From Candidatus Woesearchaeota archaeon (GTDB taxonomy: Archaea > Nanobdellota > Nanobdellia > Woesearchaeales > UBA10216), in assembly GCA_016188145.1 (NCBI GenBank), contig JACPIJ010000059.1, positions 1 to 32,512 on the forward strand: a stretch of 32,512 nt of DNA, in the 5' to 3' direction. The notes below the pieces were generated by a model. That model saw nothing but the letters and a program-made list of their open reading frames with translations. It had not been told where the DNA came from and searched no databases. The position numbers were made by a program, and so were the translations under genes. Below, piece after piece: positions 3,042-28,780 of this stretch (its first letter is position 1; every line of letters begins with the position of its first letter).

Positions 3042-6029
3042 ATGGCTGAGGCGGTTTCTGAGTTTGGGCCGATGGGCCAGCAGCCCGCTGCTGCGGCAGG
3101 GGCAGCAGGTATTCAGCTTACGCCGCAGCCCACCATTACTGCGGGCGAGCAGGGCGCCCCTGAGTTCTTTATTGACCTAAGGCCAAGGTTTGTGAAGCTT
3201 CCTGACATCAGCGTCAAGGAGAGCATCAACATCCGCTATCCGCTGCTGCCGCCGTATGCCTTTGCGCACATTTACTGGGACAATACGGCAAAGGAGCTTC
3301 TTTACTCTGTTGAGGAGGTGCTTCTGACAGATACGGAGAAGGAGCTTCTGAAGCTGATTCAGCTTGGCCTTGAGGAGATGATTAACATAAGCTATGCTTA
3401 CGCTTCCAAGTCCGACCTTCTGATAAAGTACCTTGAGAAGAACGTCCAGTCAATCCTTGCCGAGCTTGGCGCCAAGGTGTCAAGGCAGTCTTACCTCAAG
3501 ATAATGTATTACATCTACAGGGACTTTGTCGGGCTGAATGAGATTGAGCCGATGATGCACGACTTCTACATTGAGGACATAGAATGTAATGGCGTTGAAA
3601 CGCCCATTTACATCGTACACAGGAAGTACCAGAACATGCGGACCAACATCGTGTTCCCTGAGATGAAGAGGATTGTTGATTTTGTTGAAAAGCTCGCCCA
3701 GAAGACCGGCAGGTATGTCAGCTTTGCCAAGCCGCTCCTCGACGGCAGCCTTCCGGATGGAAGCCGTGTCAATGCAACCTACACCAGCGATGTAACTACG
3801 CACGGCCCCACGTTCACGATAAGGAAGTTTACAAAGGACCCGCTGACGCCTGTTCACCTTCTTGGCTACCAGACAGCAAGCGCTGAGATGTTCGGCTTTC
3901 TGTGGCTGGCTGTGGAGAATAAATTTAACATAATGGCTATTGGTGAGACGGCCTCCGGCAAGACAACATTCCTTAACTCAATACTTCAGTTTGTTCCTCC
4001 AGAGGCAAGGATAGTCTCGATAGAGGACACGAGGGAGCTTAACCTGGCTCACGAGAACTGGATTCCCGCCGTTGCCAGGGTGGGGTTTGGCATACCGAAC
4101 ATTCTGGGCAAGCAGTATGGCGAGATAAGCCTCTTTGACCTGCTCAGGGAAACATTCAGGCAGAACCCTGATTACGTTGTAGTTGGCGAGGTGAGGGGAA
4201 AGGAGACTTACGTGCTATTTCAGGGGATGGCTTCCATCCCGGGCGACCAGAAAATAATGGTAGTGCAGGATAACAAGCCAAAGCTGGTAAGGATTGATGA
4301 GATTACCGATGTTAGCAACTGTCAGACAGTAGCTTTTGACCCGGTTACTTGTGAGGCTAAGCTGCTGCGTGTCACAGCTCACATTAGGCATCCTGAACGG
4401 TCTGAGCTGGTCAGGATAAGGACAAAAACGGGAAGGGAAATAATAGCCACTCCTGACCATTCGCTGTTTACCATTGACAGCCAAAACCAAATGGTTGATG
4501 TCCCCGCTGGTGCTTTGAAGTCCGGGGATAAGCTCGCAATAGCAGCGAGAATACCGTGTGGTTATGCTGACATCAGCAAATTGAATCTGATAGAAATCAT
4601 ACCCAACATACGCATTTACGCTCCTGAGCTGATTAAGGAGGCTTCTCACAAGCTTGGCTATTACCAGGCTTCAGCTGTTTGCGGAGTGGCATCAATAACA
4701 GATTATTACGGCAATTTCAGGAGGGCAAGCCCTGCCTCAATGAGAAGGGACATGTTCTTCAGTTTAATGGAGGCTGCCGGTACACCGGTAGAAAAGGCGG
4801 AATTGAGTGTAAAACTTTTAAGAAAAAGCAGGCCTATACGTGCGGAACTGGAAATCACCGATGAATTCCTGAGGCTCCTGGGCTATTTCATTTCAGAAGG
4901 CACTGTCAACTTTTCCGGCAAAAACAGTTCCGTTGCCTTATACAACAAAAATCCGGAAGTGCTTGAAGACATGAGGCGTTGCTTGACTGAAGTAACAGGC
5001 ATTATACCTGCAGAGAGGGTAACGGCTCGCGGTTTTGGAGAGGCGACAGAGCTCAAAATTGGCAACAGGATTTACGCTGAGCTGTTGAAGGCACTATGCG
5101 GCAAAAGCAAGGAAAAGATGATGCCTGACTTTATTTTTGGCTTATCAAAAGAGAAAATAGGGCACTTCCTGTCCGGCTTGTTCACCGGCGATGGCCACAT
5201 AACGACTCAGTCCTTTGGGTACACAACGATTTTAAGGGGACTTGCCCAACAGTTGCAGCAGCTTTTGCTTGTTTACGGGATTGTCGCAGCTGTTTACAAA
5301 AATAAGACAAAAAAGACCTACGGCTTGGCATTTTACAGGGAGGAGGATAAAGAAGAGTTTCTTAAGCACGTTAAGGTTCTTGGCAGAAAGGATTTCAGAA
5401 GGAAGGCAAAGACGCAGAATAGCAAAAAAATAAATGATGTTTATCTCGACACAGTAAAAGAAATAGAGGTGCTGCAGCTGAAAGAGCCTGTGCCTGTGTA
5501 CGACCTGTCTGTTCCGAAGGCTGAAAATTTCCTTAGCGCGACAGGCATAATCCTTCACAACTCCGGGCACCCTTCGTTCAGCACGTTCCACGCGGCATCT
5601 GTGGAAACGATGATTCGCAGGCTTGAAACCCCGCCGATAAACCTGCCTGCCTCGCTTGTTGACTCCCTTGACATTGTCTGCAGCGTTATACACGTCAAGG
5701 ACCAGAGGCGGAACATCAGGAGGGTCAAGGATGTCAAGGAGATAATCGAGGTCAAGCAGCAGGTTGGCACCGTGGATTCCAACACTCTGTTCGAGTGGAA
5801 CAGGATTGAGGACAAGTTCGTTTACAACGGGAACTCGCACATTATGTCGGTAATAAGCAAGAGAACAGGCCGCACGATAAAGGAGCTGGAGGACGATGTC
5901 AGGCTTAGGGGGCTGCTCCTGACGAAGCTGCTTGAGAAGAACATGACGCACTACAAGGACGTCACAAGGATCGTTAACGAGTATTACAAGGACCCCGATG
6001 CGGTTTTGAGGTTTTTTAACATTAAATGA
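3042..6029 (+). CDS. Archaeal type IV pilus/secretion ATPase (FlaI/VirB11 family) with in-frame intein
   Basis: Walker A GETASGKTT, VVVGEVRGKETYVLFQGMA...SGHPSFSTFHAAS; extein halves flank an intein. Confidence 0.93.
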   Translation: MAEAVSEFGPMGQQPAAAAGAAGIQLTPQPTITAGEQGAPEFFIDLRPRFVKLPDISVKESINIRYPLLPPYAFAHIYWDNTAKELLYSVEEVLLTDTEKELLKLIQLGLEEMINISYAYASKSDLLIKYLEKNVQSILAELGAKVSRQSYLKIMYYIYRDFVGLNEIEPMMHDFYIEDIECNGVETPIYIVHRKYQNMRTNIVFPEMKRIVDFVEKLAQKTGRYVSFAKPLLDGSLPDGSRVNATYTSDVTTHGPTFTIRKFTKDPLTPVHLLGYQTASAEMFGFLWLAVENKFNIMAIGETASGKTTFLNSILQFVPPEARIVSIEDTRELNLAHENWIPAVARVGFGIPNILGKQYGEISLFDLLRETFRQNPDYVVVGEVRGKETYVLFQGMASIPGDQKIMVVQDNKPKLVRIDEITDVSNCQTVAFDPVTCEAKLLRVTAHIRHPERSELVRIRTKTGREIIATPDHSLFTIDSQNQMVDVPAGALKSGDKLAIAARIPCGYADISKLNLIEIIPNIRIYAPELIKEASHKLGYYQASAVCGVASITDYYGNFRRASPASMRRDMFFSLMEAAGTPVEKAELSVKLLRKSRPIRAELEITDEFLRLLGYFISEGTVNFSGKNSSVALYNKNPEVLEDMRRCLTEVTGIIPAERVTARGFGEATELKIGNRIYAELLKALCGKSKEKMMPDFIFGLSKEKIGHFLSGLFTGDGHITTQSFGYTTILRGLAQQLQQLLLVYGIVAAVYKNKTKKTYGLAFYREEDKEEFLKHVKVLGRKDFRRKAKTQNSKKINDVYLDTVKEIEVLQLKEPVPVYDLSVPKAENFLSATGIILHNSGHPSFSTFHAASVETMIRRLETPPINLPASLVDSLDIVCSVIHVKDQRRNIRRVKDVKEIIEVKQQVGTVDSNTLFEWNRIEDKFVYNGNSHIMSVISKRTGRTIKELEDDVRLRGLLLTKLLEKNMTHYKDVTRIVNEYYKDPDAVLRFFNIK
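4233..5561 (+). mobile_element. Intein with LAGLIDADG (DOD) homing endonuclease, 443 aa
   Basis: Ser1 N-terminus (SIPGDQKIMVVQDNKPKLVRID), TPDHSLF block B, LLGYFISEGTV and LSGLFTGDGHI endonuclease motifs, C-terminal FLSATGIILHN followed by +1 Ser; removal restores GMA-SGHPSFSTFHAAS. Confidence 0.93.
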
Positions 6030-14602: not shown

Positions 14603-16270
14603 ATGGTACACCTGTTGTTTCCGGGAAGGCACCTTGTCAATACAAGGTTCCAGGAAGATTACCTTAGGCAAGTACTTGGAGTGCCTCTTGGCGGCCTCAA
14701 GTTTCTGCACAGGGCCCAGAACTTGCCGGAGGACGGTACCCTTGACGACATAGTCTTTGCGATAACCTCAAGGAACATGGATAATTCAAGGTTTAACCCT
14801 GTTTCGTTTGTTTACCGCGCCATTGCAGTTGATAGGTTTGGCAGTCAGTTTAATTCTAGGGGGATAAATCACAGGGTTTACGGCATTCCTGACCATGGCG
14901 TAACAGACAAGTTTCCTGAATTAACGCTGAAGGAGATACTTGAGCAGTCCGAGGGCGAGCTTAAGCTCACTCCGGAAAACACGGTTGTTGTGTGCTCAAC
15001 GCCTTCTGTGACTGAGCTTTACAAGAGGCGTGGCTTCAGCATACTGCCTGCTGAGCTGGTGTCGTTGAATCCTGAACGGTACAGCGCTCTGAGGCCAATA
15101 GACGTTGTCAGGCGTATTGCAGAGGCTGGTGAAAACTGGGCAGCTGACCCTGTGGTTATGGAAAACCTTTCTTCTGCTACCCTGAGCACCTTCCTTACCC
15201 ATTCAGAGGTTCCGAAGAAAATTATTCGGTTGTTTACAGACCCGCTGCTTACAGAGGAAGGAAGCCTTACGGAAACCAGGGATTACGGCGCTTACGTTGT
15301 TGGCATGGGCAACAAGGAGATTATAGAGCTCAAATATAATGACATCAGGCATGCGATAAAGCCTGGCAAGATTGTTGACCACGGCTGCGCTGATGGCGCT
15401 TTGATTGCCAGAATGGCCAGGGACTTTCCCGACTCTGACTTTTACGGCATTGACGCTTCTGCCACGATGATAGAGCTTGCTAGGCAGGGTCAGACCCTCA
15501 AGCGCTTTGGTAATGACACGTTTGTGTTTTTCAGGCACGGCAACATAATCAGCCCTCTTTTCAAGGGCCCGGCCGCCGACACGATTACCTCCTTATCATT
15601 GCTGCATGAGGTTTGGTCTTATGGAGCACAGCAAAGGTCAATCGATGACTACTTGGCATCTGTCCGCAGCCAGCTCGTGCCTGGCGGTCGCTTGGTTGTG
15701 AGGGATGTGGTTGGCCCAGAGGACAAGGAGCAGGAGGTTTACCTCTGGTGTAATCCTAATGATGGCTTGAACAGCAACATTGAGGCAAGGCTTGACACAC
15801 CGAGTCAGCTCAAGTCGCATTTGGATGGCTTGTCAACGAGTGCCAGATTCAGGAAGTTTGCAATTGACTTCCTTGCTGGCATGAGGGCAAAAGGCAAGCG
15901 CGGTCCTGAAACAGCAATCAGGTACAGGACTGAACGCATTGGCGGCGTTGACTATTTTGTGCTGAGGCTGAAGGATGCTGCTGAGTTCATGACAACGAAG
16001 GACTACACTGACAACTGGCAGAGCGAGATGAACGAGGAGTTCACAGCAAAGAGCTTTGCAGAGTGGAAGGAAACCTTGGCCAAGGCAGGCTACAGGGTCA
16101 TTGAGAACCCGAACGAGCCTGAAAAAGGCTCCAGGGCTTACACCAATCCGTGGATGATTGAGAAAAGATTTAAGGATAAGGTAGCATTATACGCCAAGGT
16201 CCAGGACGGCACTCTTAAGCCGAGGGCCTGGCCTGTTACAAACATGGTGCTTGTGGGTGAGAAGATATGA
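14603..16270 (+). CDS. SAM-dependent methyltransferase with N-terminal domain of unknown function
   Basis: KIVDHGCADGALIARMARDFPDSDFYGIDASATMIELAR (motif I region), PGGRLVVRDVV; preceded by TATA-like gatttaaatagg. Confidence 0.75.
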   Translation: MVHLLFPGRHLVNTRFQEDYLRQVLGVPLGGLKFLHRAQNLPEDGTLDDIVFAITSRNMDNSRFNPVSFVYRAIAVDRFGSQFNSRGINHRVYGIPDHGVTDKFPELTLKEILEQSEGELKLTPENTVVVCSTPSVTELYKRRGFSILPAELVSLNPERYSALRPIDVVRRIAEAGENWAADPVVMENLSSATLSTFLTHSEVPKKIIRLFTDPLLTEEGSLTETRDYGAYVVGMGNKEIIELKYNDIRHAIKPGKIVDHGCADGALIARMARDFPDSDFYGIDASATMIELARQGQTLKRFGNDTFVFFRHGNIISPLFKGPAADTITSLSLLHEVWSYGAQQRSIDDYLASVRSQLVPGGRLVVRDVVGPEDKEQEVYLWCNPNDGLNSNIEARLDTPSQLKSHLDGLSTSARFRKFAIDFLAGMRAKGKRGPETAIRYRTERIGGVDYFVLRLKDAAEFMTTKDYTDNWQSEMNEEFTAKSFAEWKETLAKAGYRVIENPNEPEKGSRAYTNPWMIEKRFKDKVALYAKVQDGTLKPRAWPVTNMVLVGEKI

Positions 16271-17364
16271 GTACTCCAGTGTTAAGTCCTGAGAAAATAA
16301 TTCGATATTCAGAAACCCGACTTTTTGGGCAGAACGTATCGCCAAGCGACGTGCAGTCTATTACTCTCCACAATGGCGTTCTGCCCTCAAGACTTGAGCA
16401 TATGCTGGAATCAGTTGGTGGGTCGGCGTTTGACCGCGTAATTCAGCAAAATGGCCGTGAGCCAATTTATTTTCAGCATGGCGGGTTGCATATCCCGCAG
16501 TACAGCGGTTTTGGCAGGCGCAGGAGATATGAACAAATGATTTTGGCTTACTTACAGGCAAGCGGTCTTCCTATAGAGTTCCGCTCCCAGGAAGTTGAGG
16601 GAAAAGCGCGAAAAACAAATCACGCTTATGATAACTTCGCCTATGATTTTGTAAAGAAGTTATTTGAAACAGAGCAGATGGATGATATAACCCGAGTTAT
16701 CTTTGGCCCCCTATCAGCCGTTACTAAGCAGGCTCAAGTCCTAAAAGTTAGACCTGACGACTATTTGCCTTCGCAAATTGTTGTTGTGAAGGAAAAGAAA
16801 GTCTTGAATGTGGGCTATGTTTTTTCAGACCAAGCAGGTATCCTTATTGACAAGATGCTTATTGAGTACGCAGCCATTTCACAGCAAAAGCGTGATAAGT
16901 TTGGAATTCAGCTTTTCATGTTTGGTCGAGTTGGAGGTTTGCACGATGATATGAAGCGTCACGACCTTGTTTACCCAACTGGGACTGTTGATGATACCGA
17001 CCTTGAAGAGGGAAGACGCTTTGTCTACCCGATGCATAACGTGCTGGCGTCGGGCCACAAATTTGAAGGCCTTAACCTGAACACAAATGCGGTTATAAAC
17101 CAGAGTATCGAACAGTTAAGAAGAGCGGTCGATTCGAAATGCATCTGTGTTGAAATGGAAACTAGAGAAACAGTTGATGCTGTTAATCAGGGGAGGAGAA
17201 GATATGCTGGAACATTGGGGATTGGGTTTGGCTTTGTCGGTCACGTTTCTGATGTGCCATTGAAAAACGATACAATTGAAAAGGAACTTGATTCTGATGA
17301 AGGTGAACAAGCGGCTCTAGAGCAAATAGTCTCTTACATAACCTCTTCAGAAGCTAATCCGTAG
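16267..17364 (+). CDS. Protein with possible nucleoside phosphorylase-like features
   Basis: FMFGRVGGLHDDMKRHDLVYPTGTVDD and CVEMETRETVDAV resemble phosphorylase-superfamily motifs; ATGA overlap with the upstream methyltransferase gene. Confidence 0.5.
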   Translation: MSTPVLSPEKIIRYSETRLFGQNVSPSDVQSITLHNGVLPSRLEHMLESVGGSAFDRVIQQNGREPIYFQHGGLHIPQYSGFGRRRRYEQMILAYLQASGLPIEFRSQEVEGKARKTNHAYDNFAYDFVKKLFETEQMDDITRVIFGPLSAVTKQAQVLKVRPDDYLPSQIVVVKEKKVLNVGYVFSDQAGILIDKMLIEYAAISQQKRDKFGIQLFMFGRVGGLHDDMKRHDLVYPTGTVDDTDLEEGRRFVYPMHNVLASGHKFEGLNLNTNAVINQSIEQLRRAVDSKCICVEMETRETVDAVNQGRRRYAGTLGIGFGFVGHVSDVPLKNDTIEKELDSDEGEQAALEQIVSYITSSEANP

Positions 17365-17371
17365 GTTAAAA

Positions 17372-18256
17372 TTAAAGATACTTCTGCCTTTTAGCTTCCA
17401 AATTGCCGATAATTGTGAGTTGCGGTCCTGCCTTTAGCCTTATCACGCTCCCTATTGTGAAGTCGTTAGTGAGGTGGGCTCCGTCTATGTATATTCTGCC
17501 CTGTCTTGTGTGGGAATGCACTTCCAACTCTTTGGCAAATCCCGGTTTTTCTCCACGGATGCCTCTTGAAAAATATTGTATCTCTGTTGAGCTTAGCGGC
17601 ATTACTGTACCGTTTTCTTGGTACATCCAGGCTGTCGAGCCTGCTGCTGTGCACACCAAGAGGCCGCTGCTTCTCACTTCCCTTGCATTGCCATCCGCAA
17701 TGAGGGTATACCTTGTCATCGCAGCGGGGTTTGTGTGCGCGACCAGTATGTCGTTGAGCACTGGCTCAGGAATCTTTTTGCCATTTAGCATTATTTCAAG
17801 CCTGTTCAGCATTGTAAGAGGAGCCTTTCCTTCTTCTATTTCCTCCAAAGCCATTTCAAAATTATCGGCTGCCGCATAAGTGAAGAAGCCGGTGCTCGCA
17901 TTCGGGTCTGAGTTCACTCCCAGGATTGGCACATCGGGCGTGACTAGGTAATGTGACACTTCAAGGAAGGTGCCATCTCCTCCTACAGAGATTACAAGGT
18001 CGCTGCTACCGATGCCCTTTTTCTCAAGCTCAGCCCTGTATATGGCATCGTGGCTTATGCCTGCCCTGTTCAGTCCCTGCATTATTGTTTCGAGGCTCCT
18101 TTGCTGGGCTTCGTGGCTGCTCTTCATGCGCTCGACGTCAGTGTTGTTCTCTGCCATGAACTCCTTCAGTTCCTCATCTGGCGAGTTGCTGTACAGCTCG
18201 TACACACTTTTCTTGTAAACGACCAGCACGTTCCTCATATTAAGCACCATCCACAC
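17372..18256 (-). CDS. nadK: NAD kinase
   Basis: VISVGGDGTFLEVSHYL, PILGVNSDPNASTGFFT; start could instead be the Met at about 18238. Confidence 0.88.
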   Translation of the reverse strand: MWMVLNMRNVLVVYKKSVYELYSNSPDEELKEFMAENNTDVERMKSSHEAQQRSLETIMQGLNRAGISHDAIYRAELEKKGIGSSDLVISVGGDGTFLEVSHYLVTPDVPILGVNSDPNASTGFFTYAAADNFEMALEEIEEGKAPLTMLNRLEIMLNGKKIPEPVLNDILVAHTNPAAMTRYTLIADGNAREVRSSGLLVCTAAGSTAWMYQENGTVMPLSSTEIQYFSRGIRGEKPGFAKELEVHSHTRQGRIYIDGAHLTNDFTIGSVIRLKAGPQLTIIGNLEAKRQKYL

Positions 18257-18260
18257 TAAC

Positions 18261-18281
18261 TTAATGTATAAGTAACACTAA
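18261..18281 (-). promoter_or_regulatory. Putative NrtR-type operator upstream of NAD kinase
   Basis: TTAATGT-N7-ACACTAA between TATA (actatttaaa, 18282-18291) and the start codon. Confidence 0.65.
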
Positions 18282-18334
18282 CTACTATTTAAAGTTTTCG
18301 CCAATACTCGCTATAGCCCCCGGTACAGAATAAG

Positions 18335-18496
18335 CTATTCAAGAAGCGTCTTAAGCACGTGCCAGCTGAAGCCGGGCTTGGCATCAGTGGTCACGGCAAC
18401 GTTGCCGTATCTTTGCTGCGTTGTCACGTCTGGCTGGATGTGCTGGCGTATGACAAGCGGGTCGTAAAGGTGGGCGTTATCTTGCTCATTTTTCAT
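18335..18496 (-). CDS. 53-aa small ORF at the 3' end of the NAD operon
   Basis: MKNEQDNAHLYDPLVIRQHIQPDVTTQQRYGNVAVTTDAKPGFSWHVLKTLLE*, overlaps the upstream gene; below the ORF-track cutoff. Confidence 0.5.
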   Translation of the reverse strand: MKNEQDNAHLYDPLVIRQHIQPDVTTQQRYGNVAVTTDAKPGFSWHVLKTLLE

Positions 18497-19394
18497 ACCT
18501 CGCGGCCATTGCTTTCAGCAAATTGAGCCCGCTGATTATGGAGTCCCTTTGCATGCATACGTCATCGCCAAACATCAGGGTCCTGTAGCCCATCCTGAGG
18601 AGGTTGTCCGCGTCTCCAATGTCCTGACTTGCCGGCTCAAGGCTGTAAGCAAGCGATGGGAAAATCCTTGAAGCTGCAATTGCGGTCTTGTCCTTGGCAA
18701 GGATGGCTTCAAGCGCGGGAATTATGTGATGAGGCATTTGCAGCTCAATGAACAGGTCTCCTCTTGCCGCCATGAGCCTTGGCTCTCCTTTCCAGTCATT
18801 GGCAGCATATTCAAGGCCTTTTCGTGATTCTATCTTAGCAACGACTTTGGCTGCCGAATCAAGCTTTTTCAGCTCTTCAACGTCATTCTGGCTTTCGACA
18901 AACGAGAGCATGTAATTGTGCATGCCTGTTTTCACCGCTGCCTCGATGTATCTCTTGTCAGTGTCTGTCAGATTACCTTCAATTTGCAGCGAGTGGTGCG
19001 GTATGTTGACCGCTTCTCCTGGCCCAACAACCCTTTTTGGGCCTTCAAGCATTATCAGCTTGTTGCCATTCACTGCCGCAACTGTTGCTGACTCCTTGCC
19101 ATCTGAGAAGTATGCCTTTGTTCCAGCATCTACACTTATCCTGTGGCTAAGCTCTAGTTCGGTGAATGGTGGCACGCCATATGTTGTTACCCTGAGCTGC
19201 CTTGCCTTGAGGTCAACCCAAAGCTCCTTGCCATGCATTGCAGCCTCGTCTGATAAGCGTTTTAGCACGTCCTCAAGCGAGTCCTTTACTGGCATTACGG
19301 TGTTGAGCCTTATTCCTGAGACTATGCTGTGTCTCAGCACCTCAGCCATGTAAGGCGCATAGGGTGGCATTGTCACAATTGCTGTTATTGGCAT
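18486..19394 (-). CDS. Pyruvate kinase-like (divergent) protein
   Basis: NIPHHSLQIEGNLTDTDKRYIEAAVKTGMHNYMLSFVESQNDVEELKKL...VVAKIESRKGLEYA...MAARGDLFIEL parallels pyruvate kinase barrel motifs. Confidence 0.65.
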   Translation of the reverse strand: MPITAIVTMPPYAPYMAEVLRHSIVSGIRLNTVMPVKDSLEDVLKRLSDEAAMHGKELWVDLKARQLRVTTYGVPPFTELELSHRISVDAGTKAYFSDGKESATVAAVNGNKLIMLEGPKRVVGPGEAVNIPHHSLQIEGNLTDTDKRYIEAAVKTGMHNYMLSFVESQNDVEELKKLDSAAKVVAKIESRKGLEYAANDWKGEPRLMAARGDLFIELQMPHHIIPALEAILAKDKTAIAASRIFPSLAYSLEPASQDIGDADNLLRMGYRTLMFGDDVCMQRDSIISGLNLLKAMAARYEK

Positions 19395-19466
19395 TTTAAG
19401 TCACCATTCCCTTTGTCAGTTCAGCTGCATAAGCCAAAAATGAAAAATAAAATAAAAAATAAGCCG

Positions 19467-20504
19467 CTATGATGCGGCTTTTTTCCCATCGTCTGGGTCT
19501 CTGTCTCCTGGGGGCAGCATCCTGCTCGGCCTTGCCCGGCTGGACTTTCCGGGCGGCAGACCCCGGTCTATGACAGAGTGCGTTGGGGCTGCTGCAGCGT
19601 CAGGCACGTACCTTATTGAGCGGTACACTGCGCTGACGACGTTCGGGTCTGTCTGCCTTGCGCTCAGGTTTCCCTTGAAGTCGCCAAACTGGCCCCACTT
19701 CTTGGCAACTATGCCCATGGCTATGTCAACCACCCTGTCATAGCCGGGCAATGCTATGACCCTTTGCGGCCCTATTGCGTTTGCCCAGTGCTCTCTTACT
19801 TCAGCAGTTGTTCCTGCGTCGCCTCCGCTTCCGTAAGGTTTGTGCAAGAAGTACATGTCGAACTTTTGCAGCAGGCTTTCAAGCACTTTTTTGGAGTCAA
19901 GCGCGCCTTGCAGCTTGTCGCCAATGTAGTGCGCAACCTGCGCTGGGTCAATTGCTGTGTAGAACTTTTCGTCGCCGCATATGAACAAAAACGGCGATAC
20001 AGAGTTTGGCACATTTACATTGTTCAGCGCAAAGTAGCCAAAGAGTTCGTAGCTCTCGCTTACTTGCCCTCCGCCTCCCCCTTCGGGGAACAGGGCGTTG
20101 ATGTGGTCTTCAAGGCTTACGCCTTTGCCAAAGCCGTTGACTTGCAATGGGTAGCTGTCGCATGTCGCATCGCCAATTACACCGAAGCTTACCTCAAGGT
20201 CAGCCCTGTACTGTGACAGCGTCTGGTAGAACAGAGGCAGCCTGTCAAATATCTCTGCCGGCCAGTTGACCATTGAGCCTGTGCCGTCAATCCCGAACAC
20301 TATTACGTTCTTGCTGTCGCTGCTTATGGTCTTGCCCCTTGGGTCAACCAGCTTCATGTCCGGGCTGCTTCCTCTGCTGTAATGCCTTCCTCCCTTTGCC
20401 CTTGAGGCTGCTGCCATGCTATCAAGGTATGGCGCCCTTGCCGAGTCATACTTGTATTCTCCTGGCTTTTTCCAGTCCTTTGTGCTTCCTCCCCAGCTGT
20501 ACAT
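19467..20504 (-). CDS. VWA-like domain protein
   Basis: NVIVFGIDGTGSMVNWPAEIFDRL (MIDAS-like DxTxS). Confidence 0.65.
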   Translation of the reverse strand: MYSWGGSTKDWKKPGEYKYDSARAPYLDSMAAASRAKGGRHYSRGSSPDMKLVDPRGKTISSDSKNVIVFGIDGTGSMVNWPAEIFDRLPLFYQTLSQYRADLEVSFGVIGDATCDSYPLQVNGFGKGVSLEDHINALFPEGGGGGQVSESYELFGYFALNNVNVPNSVSPFLFICGDEKFYTAIDPAQVAHYIGDKLQGALDSKKVLESLLQKFDMYFLHKPYGSGGDAGTTAEVREHWANAIGPQRVIALPGYDRVVDIAMGIVAKKWGQFGDFKGNLSARQTDPNVVSAVYRSIRYVPDAAAAPTHSVIDRGLPPGKSSRARPSRMLPPGDRDPDDGKKAAS

Positions 20505-20602
20505 CTTAGTTCACCTCCTGTCTTAACGCTCGCGGCCAGCTGCCTTTGCATAGCTGCCGCTACCTTGTTGTTTGATTCGCGAATCCTTCACTGTTCAAAC
20601 AG

Positions 20603-21376
20603 TCAGGCAGTGTGTCTTCTTCCGAAAGCTTCCTGCCTTATGTCTGACAGCCTTTGTATCAGGTTTTCCTTATCCCAGTTCGGCCGTTCCCTAGGATCGT
20701 AACGTATGAGGCTGCTTCCAAATTCGGCAAGGGGCTTTGGCGCGTCTGCCGGAAAGTCTTTGCTTAACACAGCAGCTTCCCCACCCAATGCATAAAGCAG
20801 TACCATTCCTGCTCCGTAGATGTCGGTTTCCGGTATTGGTGGCTTGCCACCTGCGAGTTCTGGTGCAGCATATGCGGGTGTTGAGCCTATCGGCCTTGTC
20901 CTGCTTGTTGGCTTGTAAACAGAAAGCCCCCAGTCTATCAGTTTGATGTCATGCTTTTTGTTCTCGACTATGACGTTGCCGGGCTTTACGTCAGAATGCA
21001 CAACGCCGTTTGCATGTGCGTAGTAAAGCGCTCCAAGAAGCCTTTCCAGAATCCAGGATGCGTCTTCTGGATGTATTCTGCCGTTTCTGGCAACGAGGTC
21101 GTCAAGTGTTTTGCCTTCTATCCAGCTCATTACGAGCGCTGCCCTGTGCCTTTCAAGGAGGTAGAAGTCCTTTGCGTTCGGTATGGAGTGGTATTCTCCA
21201 AGCTGCCAGAGCAGCTTTGCCTCTGCCCTCAGCAGTTCCACGTCTTCAGGGTGGGGTTCTTTGTTTATCTTGACGCATGCTGGCTCGTCAAGCAGCTTGT
21301 GCCTTGCCTTGAATATCCTTGCAAATCCGCCCTCCGCAATCTCGTCTGTTATCTCATACTGGTCCAGCATGTTCAT
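20603..21376 (-). CDS. Eukaryotic-type (Hanks) Ser/Thr protein kinase
   Basis: VVHSDVKPGNVIV (HxDxKxxN), IKLIDWGLS (DWG variant), PAYAAPELAGG (APE), IAEGGFARIFKA glycine-rich loop. Confidence 0.9.
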   Translation of the reverse strand: MNMLDQYEITDEIAEGGFARIFKARHKLLDEPACVKINKEPHPEDVELLRAEAKLLWQLGEYHSIPNAKDFYLLERHRAALVMSWIEGKTLDDLVARNGRIHPEDASWILERLLGALYYAHANGVVHSDVKPGNVIVENKKHDIKLIDWGLSVYKPTSRTRPIGSTPAYAAPELAGGKPPIPETDIYGAGMVLLYALGGEAAVLSKDFPADAPKPLAEFGSSLIRYDPRERPNWDKENLIQRLSDIRQEAFGRRHTA

Positions 21377-22416
21377 TTTGCATCCCCCCTCACTTCGCCA
21401 AGCTCGAACATTCTTTCCAAGGCCTTGTAAGCCTTTACTCTGATGTGTTCTGGCACAAGTATCTCTGGCTTCTCATCCCTGAGCGAGTCCCTCAGGTTGC
21501 GCAGCGTTACTGTTTTCATGTAAGGGCAGAGGTTGCACGGCCCTACCATCTCGATATCCTCTCCTTTCTGGGCGTATTCGTTTTTTATCGTGGAAGAAAG
21601 CCCGCACTCCGTCGCCATTAGGAAAGTGAGGTGCTCGCCGCTCTTTTTTGCAGCTGCCGTTTCCCTTGCTATGTACTTGCGCATGTCGTTTGTGCCGCCA
21701 TGGAAGTCGGCTGCCGCTATGATTGAGGGGTCGCATTCGTAGTGCGCCAGAACCCTGAGCCCGGGCATTAGCTTTCTTATGTTGGGAATGTCTAATGCTG
21801 TGAATGTCTCATGCAGGATGCATGCTCCGTCATAAGTGATTATTTCCTTGTCAGGGAGCTCTGCCTTCAGGTTGGCTCCCATGTACTTGTCAGGTATGAA
21901 CAGTATCTGCCTTTGCGGCAGCTTTGAGATTATGGTCTTGACATTTGCTGACGTTACGCAAACATCTGATTCGGCCTTGACTTCCGCTGTTGTGTTTACA
22001 TAGGTTACAACAGCTGCGTCAGGATAGGCTTCCCTCAGCCTTCTCACGTCCTCGCCGGTTATGCTGTCCGCGAGCGAGCATCCAGCTTCAAGCGTGGGCA
22101 GAATTACCTTTTTGGCAGGGTTGAGTATCTTTGCTGTCTCTGCCATGAACTTCACGCCTGCAAATACGATAATGTCTGCGGTTGTTTCCCTTGCCTGCCT
22201 ACTGAGGTCAAGAGAGTCTCCAAGGTAGTCTGCAACTAGCTTTACAGCATCCCTCATGTACCAGTGGCCCAGCACGACTGCGTTTTTCTCCCTTTTCAGG
22301 GCATTGATTGCTTCTATGACTGTAACTGTCTCTTCAAGGTCTGGAATCTGGTCTCTTCCGAAAAGGAGCTGTTTCCTTAGTTCTGCAGGCGTAATCAGCT
22401 TTTGCTCGATTGCCAT
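21373..22416 (-). CDS. nadA: Quinolinate synthase
   Basis: LGHWYMRDAVKLVADYLGDSLDLSRQA, IIVFAGVKFMAETAKILNP, LEAGCSLADS, GPCNLCPYMKTVTL. Confidence 0.95.
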   Translation of the reverse strand: MAIEQKLITPAELRKQLLFGRDQIPDLEETVTVIEAINALKREKNAVVLGHWYMRDAVKLVADYLGDSLDLSRQARETTADIIVFAGVKFMAETAKILNPAKKVILPTLEAGCSLADSITGEDVRRLREAYPDAAVVTYVNTTAEVKAESDVCVTSANVKTIISKLPQRQILFIPDKYMGANLKAELPDKEIITYDGACILHETFTALDIPNIRKLMPGLRVLAHYECDPSIIAAADFHGGTNDMRKYIARETAAAKKSGEHLTFLMATECGLSSTIKNEYAQKGEDIEMVGPCNLCPYMKTVTLRNLRDSLRDEKPEILVPEHIRVKAYKALERMFELGEVRGDAK

Positions 22417-22420
22417 TTTT

Positions 22421-23509
22421 TTACCCCTCTGCCACCCTGAGTTTCTCTGCGGCAGCGTCTCTTCTGTACAGGCCCTCGTCAGCCATCGCTGCTATTGTCT
22501 CAAGCCCGAACTCCTTCCTAAAGCGCCCCACAAGGCCGTTGCGCTCAAGGTAGTCTGCAACAGCTACCGGCACCATTGGCTTCCAAAGGCTGCCTTGGGC
22601 TATTGCCGTCCTTACCATTGTGCCGCTAAGCATTATCCAGCTCTCCCTCGGGATTATTTCGTACGAGTTTATTGCAGGGTAATGCGGTGCAAGAAGCTGC
22701 TTTGCGTACTCGTTTCCTGTAACAAAACAGTCCAGTGTGCCGTATGCAGCAACAGCTTCCTCAGCCCATTTTTTGCCGTCCTTGAATTCGGGGATGTGGC
22801 CATAATCCTGAATGAATGCAAAGCGGTAGTTGCTGAACCTTGGCCCCAGGTGCAGGTCAATCATGTCCCTTGCCTCTTCTGCAGTGAAGGGATTTCTGGA
22901 ATTGTACTTGTTGCTGCTTCCGATGCCGATTACCACTTCATTAGCCTGTCCGCATACGGCTTCAAGCATTAATGCCGAGCCAATGTGTAAAGGCCTGAAC
23001 CTTCCGACGACACCTGCCTTTCCGAGGGGCTTTTCAATGGCGCCTTGCCTGGCTTTTGAAATGTAGTCGCTCAGGATTTTCGCGTGGTCAAACGCCAGCT
23101 TCATGCCGTCTGAGCTGCCGCCGCTAATCAGATGTTTAACTTCGTCAATGCTGTAGACTCTGGCTCCTGCAGCATCATCGCCTGCCCTGAGCTCACCATA
23201 GCCTGTTCCTGCATATGCGATGCTTATCATGTGCCCTCTCGGATCCCTATCTGGCGCGTCGAAAATGGCAAAATGTTTTCTGCCCTTCACTATATACGTC
23301 AAGCTGGTTTCTTCCATTGCTTCCTTTCGCACGTTTTCTTCAAGCGTCAGCCCGCCTTCAGCGAACCCTCCAGGTATTGCTATTCCATGCGGAGGGTTTT
23401 TCCTGGTGATGAGCACAATCCCTCCCCTGTACTCTATAATAGCATCAGTAGTTGGTATTGGGTTGTTGTACCCGCTGCTGTGCACAATCCTCGTTCCTCT
23501 GCTGGTCAT
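22421..23509 (-). CDS. Fusion of N-terminal Nudix hydrolase and C-terminal NMN adenylyltransferase (NadM-like)
   Basis: GGFAEGGLTLEENVRKEAMEETSL (Nudix box) then GVVGRFRPLHIGSALML...MLSGTMVRTAI (nucleotidyltransferase motifs); ATGA overlap with nadE gives start 23509. Confidence 0.85.
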   Translation of the reverse strand: MTSRGTRIVHSSGYNNPIPTTDAIIEYRGGIVLITRKNPPHGIAIPGGFAEGGLTLEENVRKEAMEETSLTYIVKGRKHFAIFDAPDRDPRGHMISIAYAGTGYGELRAGDDAAGARVYSIDEVKHLISGGSSDGMKLAFDHAKILSDYISKARQGAIEKPLGKAGVVGRFRPLHIGSALMLEAVCGQANEVVIGIGSSNKYNSRNPFTAEEARDMIDLHLGPRFSNYRFAFIQDYGHIPEFKDGKKWAEEAVAAYGTLDCFVTGNEYAKQLLAPHYPAINSYEIIPRESWIMLSGTMVRTAIAQGSLWKPMVPVAVADYLERNGLVGRFRKEFGLETIAAMADEGLYRRDAAAEKLRVAEG

Positions 23510-25533
23510 GCTGTCCTCACCTCTGCAGCTGCCCCCAGTGCCACCATCCTTTCTGACTCTGGTTCGTATCTTTCCATACGCAGCACCTTCTCCCTTAGCA
23601 GCTTGTAGCCCTCTGTGATGTGCGGCGGCAGTATGCTTTCCCTCCTGTCGTAGCCAAAGGCTGTTGGGCTTGTAACGATGATTGGCGGGCTTTGGATGCG
23701 CTTGAACACGTTGCCCTGCACCTTTCTCACGACCCACTCAAGGTCTTTGACAAACTCTGCAGGCTTGTCCATTCCCCAGCGCTGCATCAGGGCTGTGCTT
23801 ATGCCGAGGTTTCTCTCCATGGCTCCGTCAAGGTACCACTGCATGATGCCTTCTGGCGTCTTTATCATGTAAGCAGTCATTGCTTCAACCAGAGCGCAGT
23901 GATACCCCAGCTTGATCTGGCTGACCTGCTTTTCCTTGAGCTCAGGTCCTGAGGGAACCTGGTCTGCCCTGTACCTGAACAGCTCGTCAGGAATCAGCTT
24001 TTCAGGGATAACTTCGCGCCTGAAAACCTCCTCGTTGAGGTAGCGCGCGAGCTCAAACACCTCCTTCTTTGTAAGGTCGCCGATTGGAGCTATTGCCCCT
24101 CCCACGTCACCATACAGAGTTGCATACCCGAGCGCGACCTCTGTCTTGTTGCCGTTGTTGGTAAAGAGCGCGCCGTATTTGCCTGCAAGGTTTGACAGTA
24201 TAGATGTTCCCCTGATTTTGGCAGCAACGTTCTCCGCATAGTCGCTGTCTGCCAGCTTCCTTCCGCTGCCGTCCAGGTCAAACCTGTCAATCAGCTCAAC
24301 ATTGGCGTTGACAATGTCTTCAATTGGGATCTGCACGTAGCCAATTCCCAGGCTTTCTGCAATCTGGGCTGCCGCGTTCCTTGTCTTGGCAGTGTTGTGT
24401 CTGGTTGGCATGTTGACAGCAAGCACTTTTTCAGGCCCTACTGCAATGCTGAGCAAAGCTGCAACAACTGCGCTGTCAATCCCGCCAGAAAGCCCTATGA
24501 CGTAGCGCGGCTGCTCTTTCATTCCTGACATGTTCTTGACGTGCCTGATGCCTGCAATGATTGCCTCATACTTTTGCGCTATCCGCGGCTTCTCAACCCT
24601 TTCCACAGCTGCTTTGTTCAGGTCTGCGTCGCTGATTATGATTAGCTCTTCCCTGTACGGGGCTGCGCTGAGCCTCACAGGCTTGCCTTCGCCGTTATAA
24701 ACCGTTGAGCTGCCCTCGAGTGTGATGATGTTCTTGCCGTTGTTCTGGGCGCCTGTGTGGTTAACGTACAGGAATGGCACGAAGTCTTTTCCTGATTCCT
24801 GTGCCAGGAACCGTACCCTCCTGTCCCTCGCATTATTCTTGCCATAAGTCCATGGCGATGATGATATGTTGACTATCATTTGTGCGCCGTTGCTGATGAG
24901 AATCTTCGTTACATTCTCAGCTCCGCCATTTCTCCTGTATTCTGCGCACCACAGGTCTTCGCAGACCTCAAATCCAATAGGCACTTTTTTTCCATTAACC
25001 TCTATGAGGAATGGCTGCACAATTTCTTCCAGTGTTTTCCCGGCATCCTTTGCCACATCTTCAAGAGAAAAGAAGTATCTCTCGTCATCAAAGAAGCGGT
25101 AGTTTGGCAGCAGCGTTTTCGGCTCCACTCCCTGCGGCAGTATGCTCGTTTCCCTCAGCCTGGGCGCTGGCCTGCCGTTCTGGAAAACATAAACAGCATT
25201 GTACTTCCTGCTCCTGCCGTCCTTGTTGGGGTGCGGCCCTTTTTCTCCGGTCCTTTCGTTTATGGCTTTGTCTGTGTCCACAAAGATGTTGCCGTATGCA
25301 ATTGCAATTCCATTGCTTGCTTTTCGAATTTCCTCATTGAATGACATGAACTCGCGCAGGAGGTCTTCCCTGTAGAAGTGGTCTGTGAGCAGGTAGCCCG
25401 GCACGCACATCTCCGGGAAGGCTATGAGGTCAACGCCTTCCCTTTTTGCCCTTTCAACCATCTCCAGCATTGCCTCAAGGTTTTTCCTTGGGCTTCCCGG
25501 AACCACTTCCATCTGAGCTAGGGCTACCTTCAC
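23506..25533 (-). CDS. nadE: Glutamine-dependent NAD+ synthetase
   Basis: N-terminal nitrilase-type glutaminase domain (FPEMCVPGYLL, VCEDLW) and PP-loop synthetase (YVIGLSGGIDSAVVAALL). Confidence 0.95.
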   Translation of the reverse strand: MKVALAQMEVVPGSPRKNLEAMLEMVERAKREGVDLIAFPEMCVPGYLLTDHFYREDLLREFMSFNEEIRKASNGIAIAYGNIFVDTDKAINERTGEKGPHPNKDGRSRKYNAVYVFQNGRPAPRLRETSILPQGVEPKTLLPNYRFFDDERYFFSLEDVAKDAGKTLEEIVQPFLIEVNGKKVPIGFEVCEDLWCAEYRRNGGAENVTKILISNGAQMIVNISSSPWTYGKNNARDRRVRFLAQESGKDFVPFLYVNHTGAQNNGKNIITLEGSSTVYNGEGKPVRLSAAPYREELIIISDADLNKAAVERVEKPRIAQKYEAIIAGIRHVKNMSGMKEQPRYVIGLSGGIDSAVVAALLSIAVGPEKVLAVNMPTRHNTAKTRNAAAQIAESLGIGYVQIPIEDIVNANVELIDRFDLDGSGRKLADSDYAENVAAKIRGTSILSNLAGKYGALFTNNGNKTEVALGYATLYGDVGGAIAPIGDLTKKEVFELARYLNEEVFRREVIPEKLIPDELFRYRADQVPSGPELKEKQVSQIKLGYHCALVEAMTAYMIKTPEGIMQWYLDGAMERNLGISTALMQRWGMDKPAEFVKDLEWVVRKVQGNVFKRIQSPPIIVTSPTAFGYDRRESILPPHITEGYKLLREKVLRMERYEPESERMVALGAAAEVRTA

Positions 25534-25544
25534 TTTTTATCGCC

Positions 25545-26180
25545 TCACTGCAAGTATTTCTCCAGGGTTGCTGCTTCCACAATCTTTGCCCCTCTGCGAA
25601 CCCAATTTGCTGTCGGGTCTGGTATTCCCGGCAGGCCTTTGATTGCGTCTGCGATTACGTAAACTTCTTTGCCCCTGTCAAGCAGGCCCTGGACTGCAAA
25701 GTCCACGCATACATTTGCTGCAACGCCGTAAACAAAAGCCCTGCCGGGTTTCAGGTATGCAAGCACAGCTTCCGCGTGAGGAGAGCCGTGCGTTTTGTGG
25801 AACACGTCAAAGTCGTCCTTTGTCAGTACAATGTTGCGGTGTTCTGCCAGCAGCCTTTCGTCAAGAGTTTTGTCCCTCCAGTCAAGCAGGTAAGCATCCT
25901 CAGGCTTTGTTGCAGGCACGAACTCAGCCCCTGGCGTGCCGTACATGCAGTGCTCCGGAAATGTTGTTACAAAGTCTGGCTTGTCAGAGAGCTCGTGAGA
26001 ATTTTTGTCATGGGAGTCTGCAGTATTGACAACGACAAGCCCGTAACTTGCTGCCAATCCTGTAAGCTTCCTCAATGCTGGCTCTATCTTCTCAGCGTCA
26101 GGCACGTAGAGCTTGCCTTCCTTTCTCATGAAGTCGAACTGCGTGTCAACGTTCCAAAATACGGTACTTACGGTCATCAT
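25545..26180 (-). CDS. pncA: Nicotinamidase/isochorismatase family protein
   Basis: FWNVDTQFDFM, VVNTADSHDKNSHELS, VYGVAANVCVDFAVQGLLDRG. Confidence 0.88.
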   Translation of the reverse strand: MMTVSTVFWNVDTQFDFMRKEGKLYVPDAEKIEPALRKLTGLAASYGLVVVNTADSHDKNSHELSDKPDFVTTFPEHCMYGTPGAEFVPATKPEDAYLLDWRDKTLDERLLAEHRNIVLTKDDFDVFHKTHGSPHAEAVLAYLKPGRAFVYGVAANVCVDFAVQGLLDRGKEVYVIADAIKGLPGIPDPTANWVRRGAKIVEAATLEKYLQ

Positions 26181-26181
26181 C

Positions 26182-26298
26182 TTACTCCACCTCCAGCGGC
26201 AGACCGCCATAAACAATCACCACAGTATACTCGCCTCCCTTGCCCCTGACGGTTCCAACGATTTCCTCGAGCCTTTTGCCATTTCTCGTTCCGATCAT
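26182..26298 (-). CDS. 38-aa small ORF upstream of pncA
   Basis: MIGTRNGKRLEEIVGTVRGKGGEYTVVIVYGGLPLEVE*, stop 1 nt from the pncA start; below ORF-track cutoff. Confidence 0.5.
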   Translation of the reverse strand: MIGTRNGKRLEEIVGTVRGKGGEYTVVIVYGGLPLEVE

Positions 26299-26328
26299 TT
26301 CAATCACATCACATCATTTGAAATTGTG

Positions 26329-26349
26329 TTTTTGTGTTTTTCACACTAA
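26329..26349 (-). promoter_or_regulatory. Weaker putative NrtR-type operator upstream of the pncA-nadE operon
   Basis: TTTTTGT-N7-ACACTAA: one arm identical to the other sites, the second arm degenerate. Confidence 0.4.
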
Positions 26350-27726
26350 CTAGGCCGTTAAAACGGGCTTTGCAGAGTATCTTTCCTTCAGCGATGTCAC
26401 AAGCCTTTGCAGCCCTGACGAAATTTCAATAGTGTAAAGCCTTGCCGCAGCCTTCGTTACCTTAAGTGCGTCAGGAAGCCTTTCAACGCACGCCAGCGCA
26501 TAGCCCCTTATCTCGCTTAGCTGCCTTCTTTCGGCAACTCTTTTGCCATCCAAAACAACAGGTTCAAGCAACGGTGCCCCTTCATGCTCTTCCCCGTCAA
26601 GCGCGATTATGTCGTGCAGGTATTTCCCATCAGTTCCTGTAACCCTGAAAAGCTGCTTCTTTCCAGGCAGTGTCTGCTTTTCAGCCGAGAGCTTGATTTT
26701 GGCGCCGTCAGTATCTTCCACAAGCTTGTAAACTCCTGATATTGCAGCCACAGGCTTTGCTGTTATCATCTCTGTTCCTACACCGTAGCCATCTATCTTC
26801 GCGCCTCTCTTCCTGAGTTCCTCAATCTTGTACTCGTTCAGGTCGTTGCTTGCTACAATTTTGACATACCTGAGGCCGCCCTTGTCAAGTATCTGCCTAA
26901 CCCTTACAGATAAGTCTGCGAGTTCCCCAGAGTCAAGCCTCACAGCACCCAATCTCCCGTCTTTCGCTTCGAGCTCTTTTGCAACAATTGCCGCATTTCT
27001 GGCCCCTTCTATTGTGTCGTAGGTGTCAATCAGCAGCGTTGCGTTATTCGGAAATGTCCTGGCATAAGCCCTGAATGCTTCCAGCTCTGTCGGGAAGCTC
27101 ATCACGAAGCTGTGCGCGTGCGTGCCTGAGATTGGGATGCCAAACTCCATCCCGGCTTTGACGTTGCTTGTCGCGACCGCCCCTCCAATGTAGGCTGCCC
27201 TTGCTCCTTTCATCGCAGCATCCTCTCCCTGTGCCCTTCTCAGCCCGAAGTCAACAACTGCCGCGCCTCCTGCGGCGTTGACCACCCTGTTTGCCTTTGT
27301 CGCAACCATTGTCTGGAAGTTGATTATGTTGAGCAGTGCGGTCTCCAAAAACTGGGCTTCTGTCCTTCTTGCCGTAACCCTGACTATTGGCTCGTTCGGG
27401 AAGACAGGCGTTCCCTCCTTTACAGCGTAGATATTGCCTGTGAACCTGAAGCCTTCCAGGAAGTCTAAGAATGCGTTGGTGAAGAGGCCCTGCCCTCTGA
27501 GGTATTCTATCTCGTTCGGTTTGAAGGCTACGCTGGTTGCATAGTCAATAGCGTCCTCTATACCATTCGCGATGAAATAGCCCCAGTCTTCAGGCAATTT
27601 CCTTATGAACAGGTCAAACGTTGCCACTTCATCCTTATCGTTGTCAAAGTACGCAGCGTTCATTGTAAGCTGGTACAGGTCTGTCAGCATTGTTTTCTCC
27701 CGCATCTTTCCCGCCGCTTCAGACAC
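26350..27726 (-). CDS. pncB: Nicotinate phosphoribosyltransferase
   Basis: MLTDLYQLTMNAAYF, VDFGLRRAQGEDAA, GTHAHSFVMSFP, YGVGTEMITA. Confidence 0.95.
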   Translation of the reverse strand: MSEAAGKMREKTMLTDLYQLTMNAAYFDNDKDEVATFDLFIRKLPEDWGYFIANGIEDAIDYATSVAFKPNEIEYLRGQGLFTNAFLDFLEGFRFTGNIYAVKEGTPVFPNEPIVRVTARRTEAQFLETALLNIINFQTMVATKANRVVNAAGGAAVVDFGLRRAQGEDAAMKGARAAYIGGAVATSNVKAGMEFGIPISGTHAHSFVMSFPTELEAFRAYARTFPNNATLLIDTYDTIEGARNAAIVAKELEAKDGRLGAVRLDSGELADLSVRVRQILDKGGLRYVKIVASNDLNEYKIEELRKRGAKIDGYGVGTEMITAKPVAAISGVYKLVEDTDGAKIKLSAEKQTLPGKKQLFRVTGTDGKYLHDIIALDGEEHEGAPLLEPVVLDGKRVAERRQLSEIRGYALACVERLPDALKVTKAAARLYTIEISSGLQRLVTSLKERYSAKPVLTA

Positions 27727-27815
27727 CTTTTCATCACCTATCAGTTATTGTTATTTTTACACTTACTCCTTTCTTAAAAAAGCCCGTGAAAAGTTTATTA
27801 TCAATATTCACGAGC

Positions 27816-27836
27816 TTAGTGTGTGGTATACACTAA
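27816..27836 (-). promoter_or_regulatory. Putative NrtR operator upstream of pncB
   Basis: Perfect inverted repeat TTAGTGT-gtggtat-ACACTAA adjacent to TATA (actatttaaa). Confidence 0.75.
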
Positions 27837-27946
27837 CTACTATTTAAATGTTTTGCATATGCTTGATATACTCAGCAATCGCACGCGGCAGCGGCTAAAA
27901 TTGGCGTATAAGAACTCAGTACCCAGCACTGGTACTATGATCAATC

Positions 27947-28630
27947 CTAAGTGAATACCTGTATCCTGTCCTTTAGCGGTTGATAGTCTTTGTCCTTGAA
28001 CGTGTAGAGCTGGGCAGGTCTGTGGGCGCCTTCCATCTTGGCTTCGTTAAGCTTTTTTAGAATTCCAAGCTCTTTTATGCGCCTTCTGAAGTTTCTCTTG
28101 TCGAGATCCTTTTTAAGGACAAGTTCGTAAAGGTGTTGCAGTTCGCTAAGTGTAAACTTGCTGGGAAGTATTTGCACGGCAACGTTTGTGGCCTGTATTT
28201 CAAACCTCAGCTCGTTGAGGGCGTCTTCTATTATCCGCTTGTGGTCAAACGCCAGCTCCCTGAGGTCGTCAGCCGAGTGCCATTCTGCCCCGAGCGCGTC
28301 AGCAGTGGAAGCAAGTTCCTGGCCCGGGCTTATCAGTGCAAGGTATGCCACGCTCAGCACCCTCCCCCTGGGGTCTCGTTTCACTTCGCCGTATGCTCCA
28401 AGCTGGTGCAGGTATATCCTGCTAATGTTGGTCTCCTCAGTAAGCTCCCTTTTTACAGCGCCCTCAAGCTCCTCGTTTTCCTCAACAAAACCGCCTGGCA
28501 GTGCCAGCTTGCCTTTGAAAGGCGGCTTGTTGCGCCTTATTAGAAGCACCTTCAGGTCTTCATGGATTACCGAGAAAACCACGGCATCAACTGCCACCCT
28601 CATGTAGCCTTCTGCCTTTTCATTAGCCAT
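27947..28630 (-). CDS. nrtR: NrtR-like regulator (Nudix domain + C-terminal winged helix)
   Basis: GGFVEENEELEGAVKRELTEETNI plus FTLSELQHLYELVLKKDLDKRNFRRRIKELGIL, in an NAD gene neighbourhood. Confidence 0.88.
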   Translation of the reverse strand: MANEKAEGYMRVAVDAVVFSVIHEDLKVLLIRRNKPPFKGKLALPGGFVEENEELEGAVKRELTEETNISRIYLHQLGAYGEVKRDPRGRVLSVAYLALISPGQELASTADALGAEWHSADDLRELAFDHKRIIEDALNELRFEIQATNVAVQILPSKFTLSELQHLYELVLKKDLDKRNFRRRIKELGILKKLNEAKMEGAHRPAQLYTFKDKDYQPLKDRIQVFT

Positions 28631-28641
28631 TTTATCACTAC

Positions 28642-28662
28642 ATAGTGTTTTAATTACACTTA
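28642..28662 (-). promoter_or_regulatory. Putative autoregulatory NrtR operator
   Basis: ATAGTGT-tttaatt-ACACTTA next to TATA (atatttaaa), upstream of nrtR start 28630. Confidence 0.6.
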
Positions 28663-28780
28663 TATTTAAACGTTGCGGTTTGTTGGCGCGATTAAGCATC
28701 CCACAATATTTATAAACAATCTTTTTTGCTCGGTAGCTTGTGGGCCCGTAGCTCAGCTTGGTTAGAGCGCCGGTCTTATA

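Follow-up and report, generated by a model that had tools for sequence, protein, structure and literature searches.

Predicted NrtR control of NAD metabolism through operators beside TATA boxes in a Woesearchaeota archaeon and its relatives

The studied NrtR repressors are bacterial, among them those of Shewanella (SoNrtR; PDB 3GZ5/3GZ6), Mycobacterium (MsNrtR), and Synechocystis. They combine a Nudix domain with a C-terminal winged helix-turn-helix (wHTH), bind palindromes of 21-23 bp, and control NAD genes as well as their own gene. Characterised bacterial NrtRs have been described as enzymatically impaired (PMC4666351, PMC6800001), and the same two papers cite NdnR of Corynebacterium, a member of the NrtR family, as responding to NAD. 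In SoNrtR, Arg98 contacts the ADP-ribose phosphate according to the paper on AraR, and BtAraR itself (PDB 5BS6 and related entries) is an L-arabinose-responsive NrtR paralogue that controls arabinose genes. On the archaeal side, one paper reports that the Nudix proteins of Sulfolobus acidocaldarius have no HTH, and we found no description of archaeal NrtR control of NAD synthesis in the open-licence literature. For a family known from bacteria, the archaeal domain and the TATA-linked promoter context described below appear to be new.

We analysed a 32,512-nucleotide stretch of DNA (the window) from Candidatus Woesearchaeota archaeon, whose genome is archaeal by a 1249.9-bit match to the archaeal SSU rRNA model, the top of its clan; its order comprises many families with small genomes, which may point to a DPANN lineage. 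The nrtR gene (27947..28630, minus strand) encodes a 227 AA protein, starting MANEK, with a Nudix sensor domain and a C-terminal winged helix; on this one chain Pfam NrtR_WHD scored 89.2 bits (cut-off 27) and NUDIX 70.7 bits. Searched against the PDB with phmmer, the protein matched BtAraR best (2e-41) and SoNrtR at 6e-32, with both domains aligned over residues 10-217. These domains and matches bear out the initial annotation, which had recognised an NrtR-like Nudix-wHTH protein in the cluster. The DKRNFR motif is common to BtAraR and the archaeal protein, and its first arginine is the counterpart of the DNA-intercalating Arg180 of BtAraR. Also conserved, as in bacterial NrtRs, is the arginine aligned with SoNrtR Arg98, the first of a DPRGR motif, in an alignment for which a numbering offset of 3 (tagged chain) was deduced from the residue numbers in the AraR paper. 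BtAraR lacks this ADP-ribose arginine and has Gly89 in its place in the effector pocket; with an arginine there and a regulon of NAD genes, the archaeal protein shows neither the sugar-binding pocket nor the pentose regulon of the AraR/XylR branch. In one family (f37, three loci), NrtR is about 400 AA long, and its extra N-terminal part resembles a second Nudix domain.

Among the traits associated with NrtRs, palindromic operators upstream of nrtR and of NAD genes were found here, and an impaired Nudix motif, which is common in the characterised proteins without defining them, was not. The Nudix box (GFVEENEELEGAVKRELTEETNI) keeps R-E-x-x-E-E and misses only the final G, which is changed to N. 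The complete REUXEEXG motif occurs in most archaeal NrtRs, whereas SoNrtR and the Melainabacteria proteins no longer possess catalytic glutamates. Since the Nudix residues are nearly intact, unlike those of characterised NrtRs, the repressor might hydrolyse its own inducer: as an active ADP-ribose pyrophosphatase it would leave the DNA, destroy the inducer, and reset itself in the manner of a trigger enzyme. We judge this addition to the repressor role possible but somewhat improbable, as an intact box is no proof of activity, the paralogous copies in families f2, f62, and f80 are degenerate, and a separate Nudix domain in the same operon could hydrolyse ADP-ribose.

The NAD genes of the cluster, all on the minus strand, are pncB for nicotinate phosphoribosyltransferase (26350..27726; Pfam NAPRTase_N, 118 bits), pncA with a nicotinamidase-type isochorismatase fold (25545..26180; Isochorismatase, 52.7 bits), nadE for glutamine-dependent NAD synthetase (23506..25533; CN_hydrolase and NAD_synthase), a Nudix-NMN adenylyltransferase fusion (22421..23509; NUDIX, 44.7 bits, and CTP_transf_like, 24 bits), nadA for quinolinate synthase (21373..22416; NadA, 346 bits), and the cluster copy of nadK for NAD kinase (17372..18256; NAD_kinase, 46 bits).

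The window contains several other reading frames of note. A Ser/Thr kinase, an unannotated protein that is vWA-like by eye, and a pyruvate-kinase-barrel-like protein are encoded at 18486-21376 (minus strand), and this trio accompanies the NAD cluster in several families (four loci, and partly a fifth). The plus-strand gene at 14603-16270 encodes a two-part protein with a C-terminal methyltransferase; a model that was poor overall (pLDDT 56.5) suggests a weak fold likeness of its N-terminal part (residues ~1-210) to archaeal NMN adenylyltransferase, the best PDB matches all being M. thermautotrophicum NMNAT (E ~1e-4). In other families, homologues of this protein are found next to either NrtR sites or NAD genes (four loci). 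The product of 16267-17364 (plus strand) matched no Pfam family above the cut-off; its model, of good quality (pLDDT 85), has the fold of a nucleoside phosphorylase/nucleosidase. Several further families have homologues adjacent to nrtR or nadK, and the protein may act in nucleoside salvage within the NAD cycle. The pncB-pncA interval holds a possible 38-AA ORF (MIGTRNGKRLEEIVGTVRGKGGEYTVVIVYGGLPLEVE; 26182-26298, minus strand), and at 3042-6029 (plus strand) lies a 995-AA secretion/archaellum-type ATPase ORF with what appears by eye to be an intein interruption.

A motif scan for TTAGTGT-N7-ACACTAA with at most two mismatches revealed five sites in the window, which we describe as predicted operators on the minus strand. 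The initial annotation had listed inverted repeats at 18261, 26329, 27816, and 28642, and all four are present at these coordinates; its list was incomplete, however, as it omitted a fifth site upstream of pncB (27745-27765). The site at 27816..27836, O1 of pncB, is a perfect palindrome (TTAGTGTATACCACACACTAA) whose position before pncB is kept in relatives, and it lies 4 bp downstream of a TATA box (TTTAAATA, 27841..27848, minus strand). The second predicted operator of this gene, O2 (27745..27765; TAAGTGTAAAAATAACAATAA, 2 mismatches), falls in the leader directly before the start codon. Similarly, the operator of nadK (18261..18281, 1 mismatch) is preceded at 4 bp by TTTAAATA (18286..18293, minus strand), and a relative (G002) has a perfect site in the same place. 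The operator of nrtR (28642..28662, 2 mismatches) is flush with its TATA box (28663..28670, minus strand; again TTTAAATA) and has the start codon about 11 nt downstream, a position that would serve autoregulation. The site at 26329..26349 abuts the pncB stop codon, between pncB and pncA, and no TATA-like element stands alongside it; it has 2 mismatches and is the weaker site it had been called, and three of the four listed sites do sit beside TATA-like elements. The same pncB-pncA junction carries sites in G031 (1 mismatch), G071 (1), and G008 (3). A second, stand-alone nadK of this genome (contig C47) has no operator, nor have the stand-alone nadK copies of the relatives.

With up to three mismatches, 0.91 sites would be expected in the window by chance, compared with the 5 found, and 0 of 100 shuffles reached 5. 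The whole genome (1,177,126 bp) contains six sites with at most two mismatches, five of them in the window (binomial P ~5e-10); the remaining one (C18:6770) overlaps the beginning of a predicted coding gene without evident NAD connection. Sites with three mismatches are at background genome-wide, so the strong sites carry the signal and weak matches elsewhere are to be ignored. It is hardly credible that chance repetition or RNA hairpin formation accounts for the palindromes: two sites do fall in transcribed leaders or intergenic spacer, but we rejected this reading on the enrichment in both window and genome, the fixed position relative to TATA, and the conservation of the arms next to a variable spacer.

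Biosynthetic promoters are arranged as a BRE-like stretch (cgaaa), TTTAWATA, 4 bp, and the operator, a layout seen at pncB and nadK of the window and at most aligned sites of other families. Archaeal TATA boxes are usually positioned near -27, and with the 4-bp gap the operator would therefore span about -19 to +1. The nrtR promoters differ in having the TATA box flush with the operator, which is also the case in seven other genomes, and the start codon within ~2-12 nt downstream. Many pncB-type promoters have a second operator before the start codon, with an asymmetric consensus of its own (TAAGTGTAAAAAATACAATAA) that recurs across families. In 10 of 15 operator pairs O2 lies 49-55 bp downstream, far from a uniform spread; the distance in the pncB pair of the window is 71 bp. 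Helical phasing of the pairs was considered and rejected, as the overall Rayleigh p of 0.009 was due to the 49-55-bp cluster and became 0.46 once the pairs at 50-56 bp were taken out; we therefore claim only a preferred spacing.

Based on these sequence comparisons, we propose with a probability of about 0.9 that the NAD cluster is controlled by NrtR, which would repress the genes of NAD salvage, synthesis, and phosphorylation together with its own gene and be released by ADP-ribose. An NrtR dimer would bind the 21-bp operator through both of its winged helices; when bound at pncB or nadK it would block recruitment of RNA polymerase after TBP/TFB, or compete with assembly, whereas at nrtR, a gene with hardly any leader, an operator that abuts the TATA box and nearly reaches the start codon would provide negative autoregulation. 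O2 in the pncB leader may strengthen or hold repression. Upon a rise in ADP-ribose from NAD turnover, the Nudix domain would bind this ligand, the wings would move, and the operator would be released, inducing the salvage, synthesis, and phosphorylation genes. What the analysis shows directly is the identity of the protein, the enrichment, placement, and conservation of the sites, and their co-occurrence with NrtR; we infer binding and repression, and also ADP-ribose as the probable effector, by analogy with the studied bacterial NrtRs and from the conserved arginine.

The comparison across related archaea covered 118 genomes, including that of the window. Genomes were counted as NrtR-bearing when a full-length match better than 1e-40 reached the winged helix, and 19 of the 118, in the same order, were so classified. 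Sites with at most one mismatch were present in 17 of the NrtR-bearing genomes, against 14 of the 99 without NrtR (Fisher P 2e-10); the two exceptions (G098 and G105) have only two-mismatch sites, beside nrtR or pnc genes. In the NrtR-bearing genomes 36 of 41 such sites were assigned to NAD or ADP-ribose genes, compared with 1 of 14 (in G073) for a control in which one site was taken from each of 14 genomes without NrtR (Fisher P 7e-8). The motif was thus not equally frequent away from NAD genes, in this genome or in the relatives, and pncB in two genomes without NrtR (G061 and G095) has no operator. The archaeal NrtR regulon predicted in the initial annotation gains support from this footprinting of NrtR-bearing genomes and controls. 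The sites persist over ~17 families although leader sequences have otherwise diverged, a conservation that could be inflated by co-inheritance of the cluster as an island.

The genes with sites in NrtR-bearing genomes are pncB, pncA, nadA or nadBA, nadK, nadE, and nrtR, and the relatives add pnuC-nadR (three loci), CoaE-nadE (one), a NAMPT-like gene (one), and ADP-ribosylglycohydrolase (three, of which two were identified by Pfam, one of them the NAMPT-like locus, and the third by eye). The presence of pnuC-nadR, ADP-ribosylglycohydrolase, the NAMPT-like gene, and nadBA fits an ADP-ribose/NAD theme. It also bears on the effector: NAD could act as co-repressor instead of ADP-ribose as inducer, for which NdnR is the precedent, but the regulated ADP-ribosylglycohydrolase and the conserved counterpart of SoNrtR Arg98 make this improbable. 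Some sites are not beside recognisable NAD genes, namely 3 of 6 strong ones in G033, one in G025, and one in G026. Some of the six strong operators of G033 precede genes for a 193-AA protein, a 134-AA protein, and a member of the inositol-monophosphatase family; these targets, without an obvious link to NAD, may be additions to the regulon, for instance an NADP phosphatase. In G073, where no NrtR was detected, the full TATA-operator layout precedes a relative of the 14603-16270 gene and pncA, perhaps owing to a gap in the assembly or to recent loss.

Within the phylum, 51 of 371 genomes have NrtR_WHD; it was absent from all three archaea named among the control genomes (Methanocaldococcus, Haloferax, and Methanosarcina). 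The pncB gene is present in 11 of the 19 NrtR-bearing genomes and in 2 of the 99 others, and most genus mates have neither pncB nor NrtR; the cluster and its regulator thus behave like an island that is retained patchily or exchanged. Among named bacteria, the proteins closest to the archaeal NrtR come from Leptolyngbya (46% identity), Melainabacteria (44-45%), and Gracilibacteria (39-40%). A perfect operator copy lies ~40 nt before nrtR of Leptolyngbya, at a plasmid locus without NAD neighbours, sites with 2 and 3 mismatches precede the pncA-pncB-nadE operon of Gracilibacteria, and related tandem sites precede nrtR in Rhizobium. These operator copies at bacterial nrtR and pnc loci indicate one DNA code common to bacteria and archaea. 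They also weigh on the reading in which some other regulator binds the palindromes and NrtR is merely a neighbour: G073, with its operator and no detected NrtR, would suit it, but the sites co-occur with NrtR across the 118 genomes and precede nrtR itself, even on a cyanobacterial plasmid, and we consider this very unlikely compared with recognition by NrtR.

The NrtR-like proteins of cyanobacteria, Gracilibacteria, and Rhizobium (39-46% identity) thus have in common with the archaeal NrtRs an identical or similar operator upstream of nrtR or of the pnc operon. Their promoters are bacterial, and the archaeal group differs in its distribution over many families and in its TATA-linked geometry. 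In the tree, archaeal NrtRs grouped with these bacteria, but no single branch set them apart as a whole; forks were open and the bacterial branches long, so we claim neither a direction of transfer nor a single transfer. It is plausible that the archaeal NrtR came from bacteria. No relative was found on viral contigs. Relative to the characterised bacterial systems, the 7-nt spacer of the operator also occurs in Mycobacterium, but the arms differ from those of Mycobacterium and Streptococcus NrtRs. The archaeal system further differs in its host, the operators adjoining TATA boxes, the largely intact Nudix catalytic residues, and a regulon that includes nadK and, in relatives, ADP-ribosylglycohydrolase. 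Taken as a whole, the picture of an archaeal trigger-enzyme NrtR acting at paired TATA-linked operators, as a NAD-homeostasis switch on an exchangeable island with an operator code that crosses domains, is tentative, and we think it unlikely to hold in every part.

If the proposed regulon is real, a repressor family familiar from bacteria acts on an unchanged operator sequence at a TBP/TFB promoter, and it would become directly testable whether an entire regulatory circuit moved between domains and how its operators were fitted to archaeal TATA boxes. It would also be a source of ready-made, ligand-controlled promoter parts and offer a way to study NAD physiology in small archaea that are largely uncultured.
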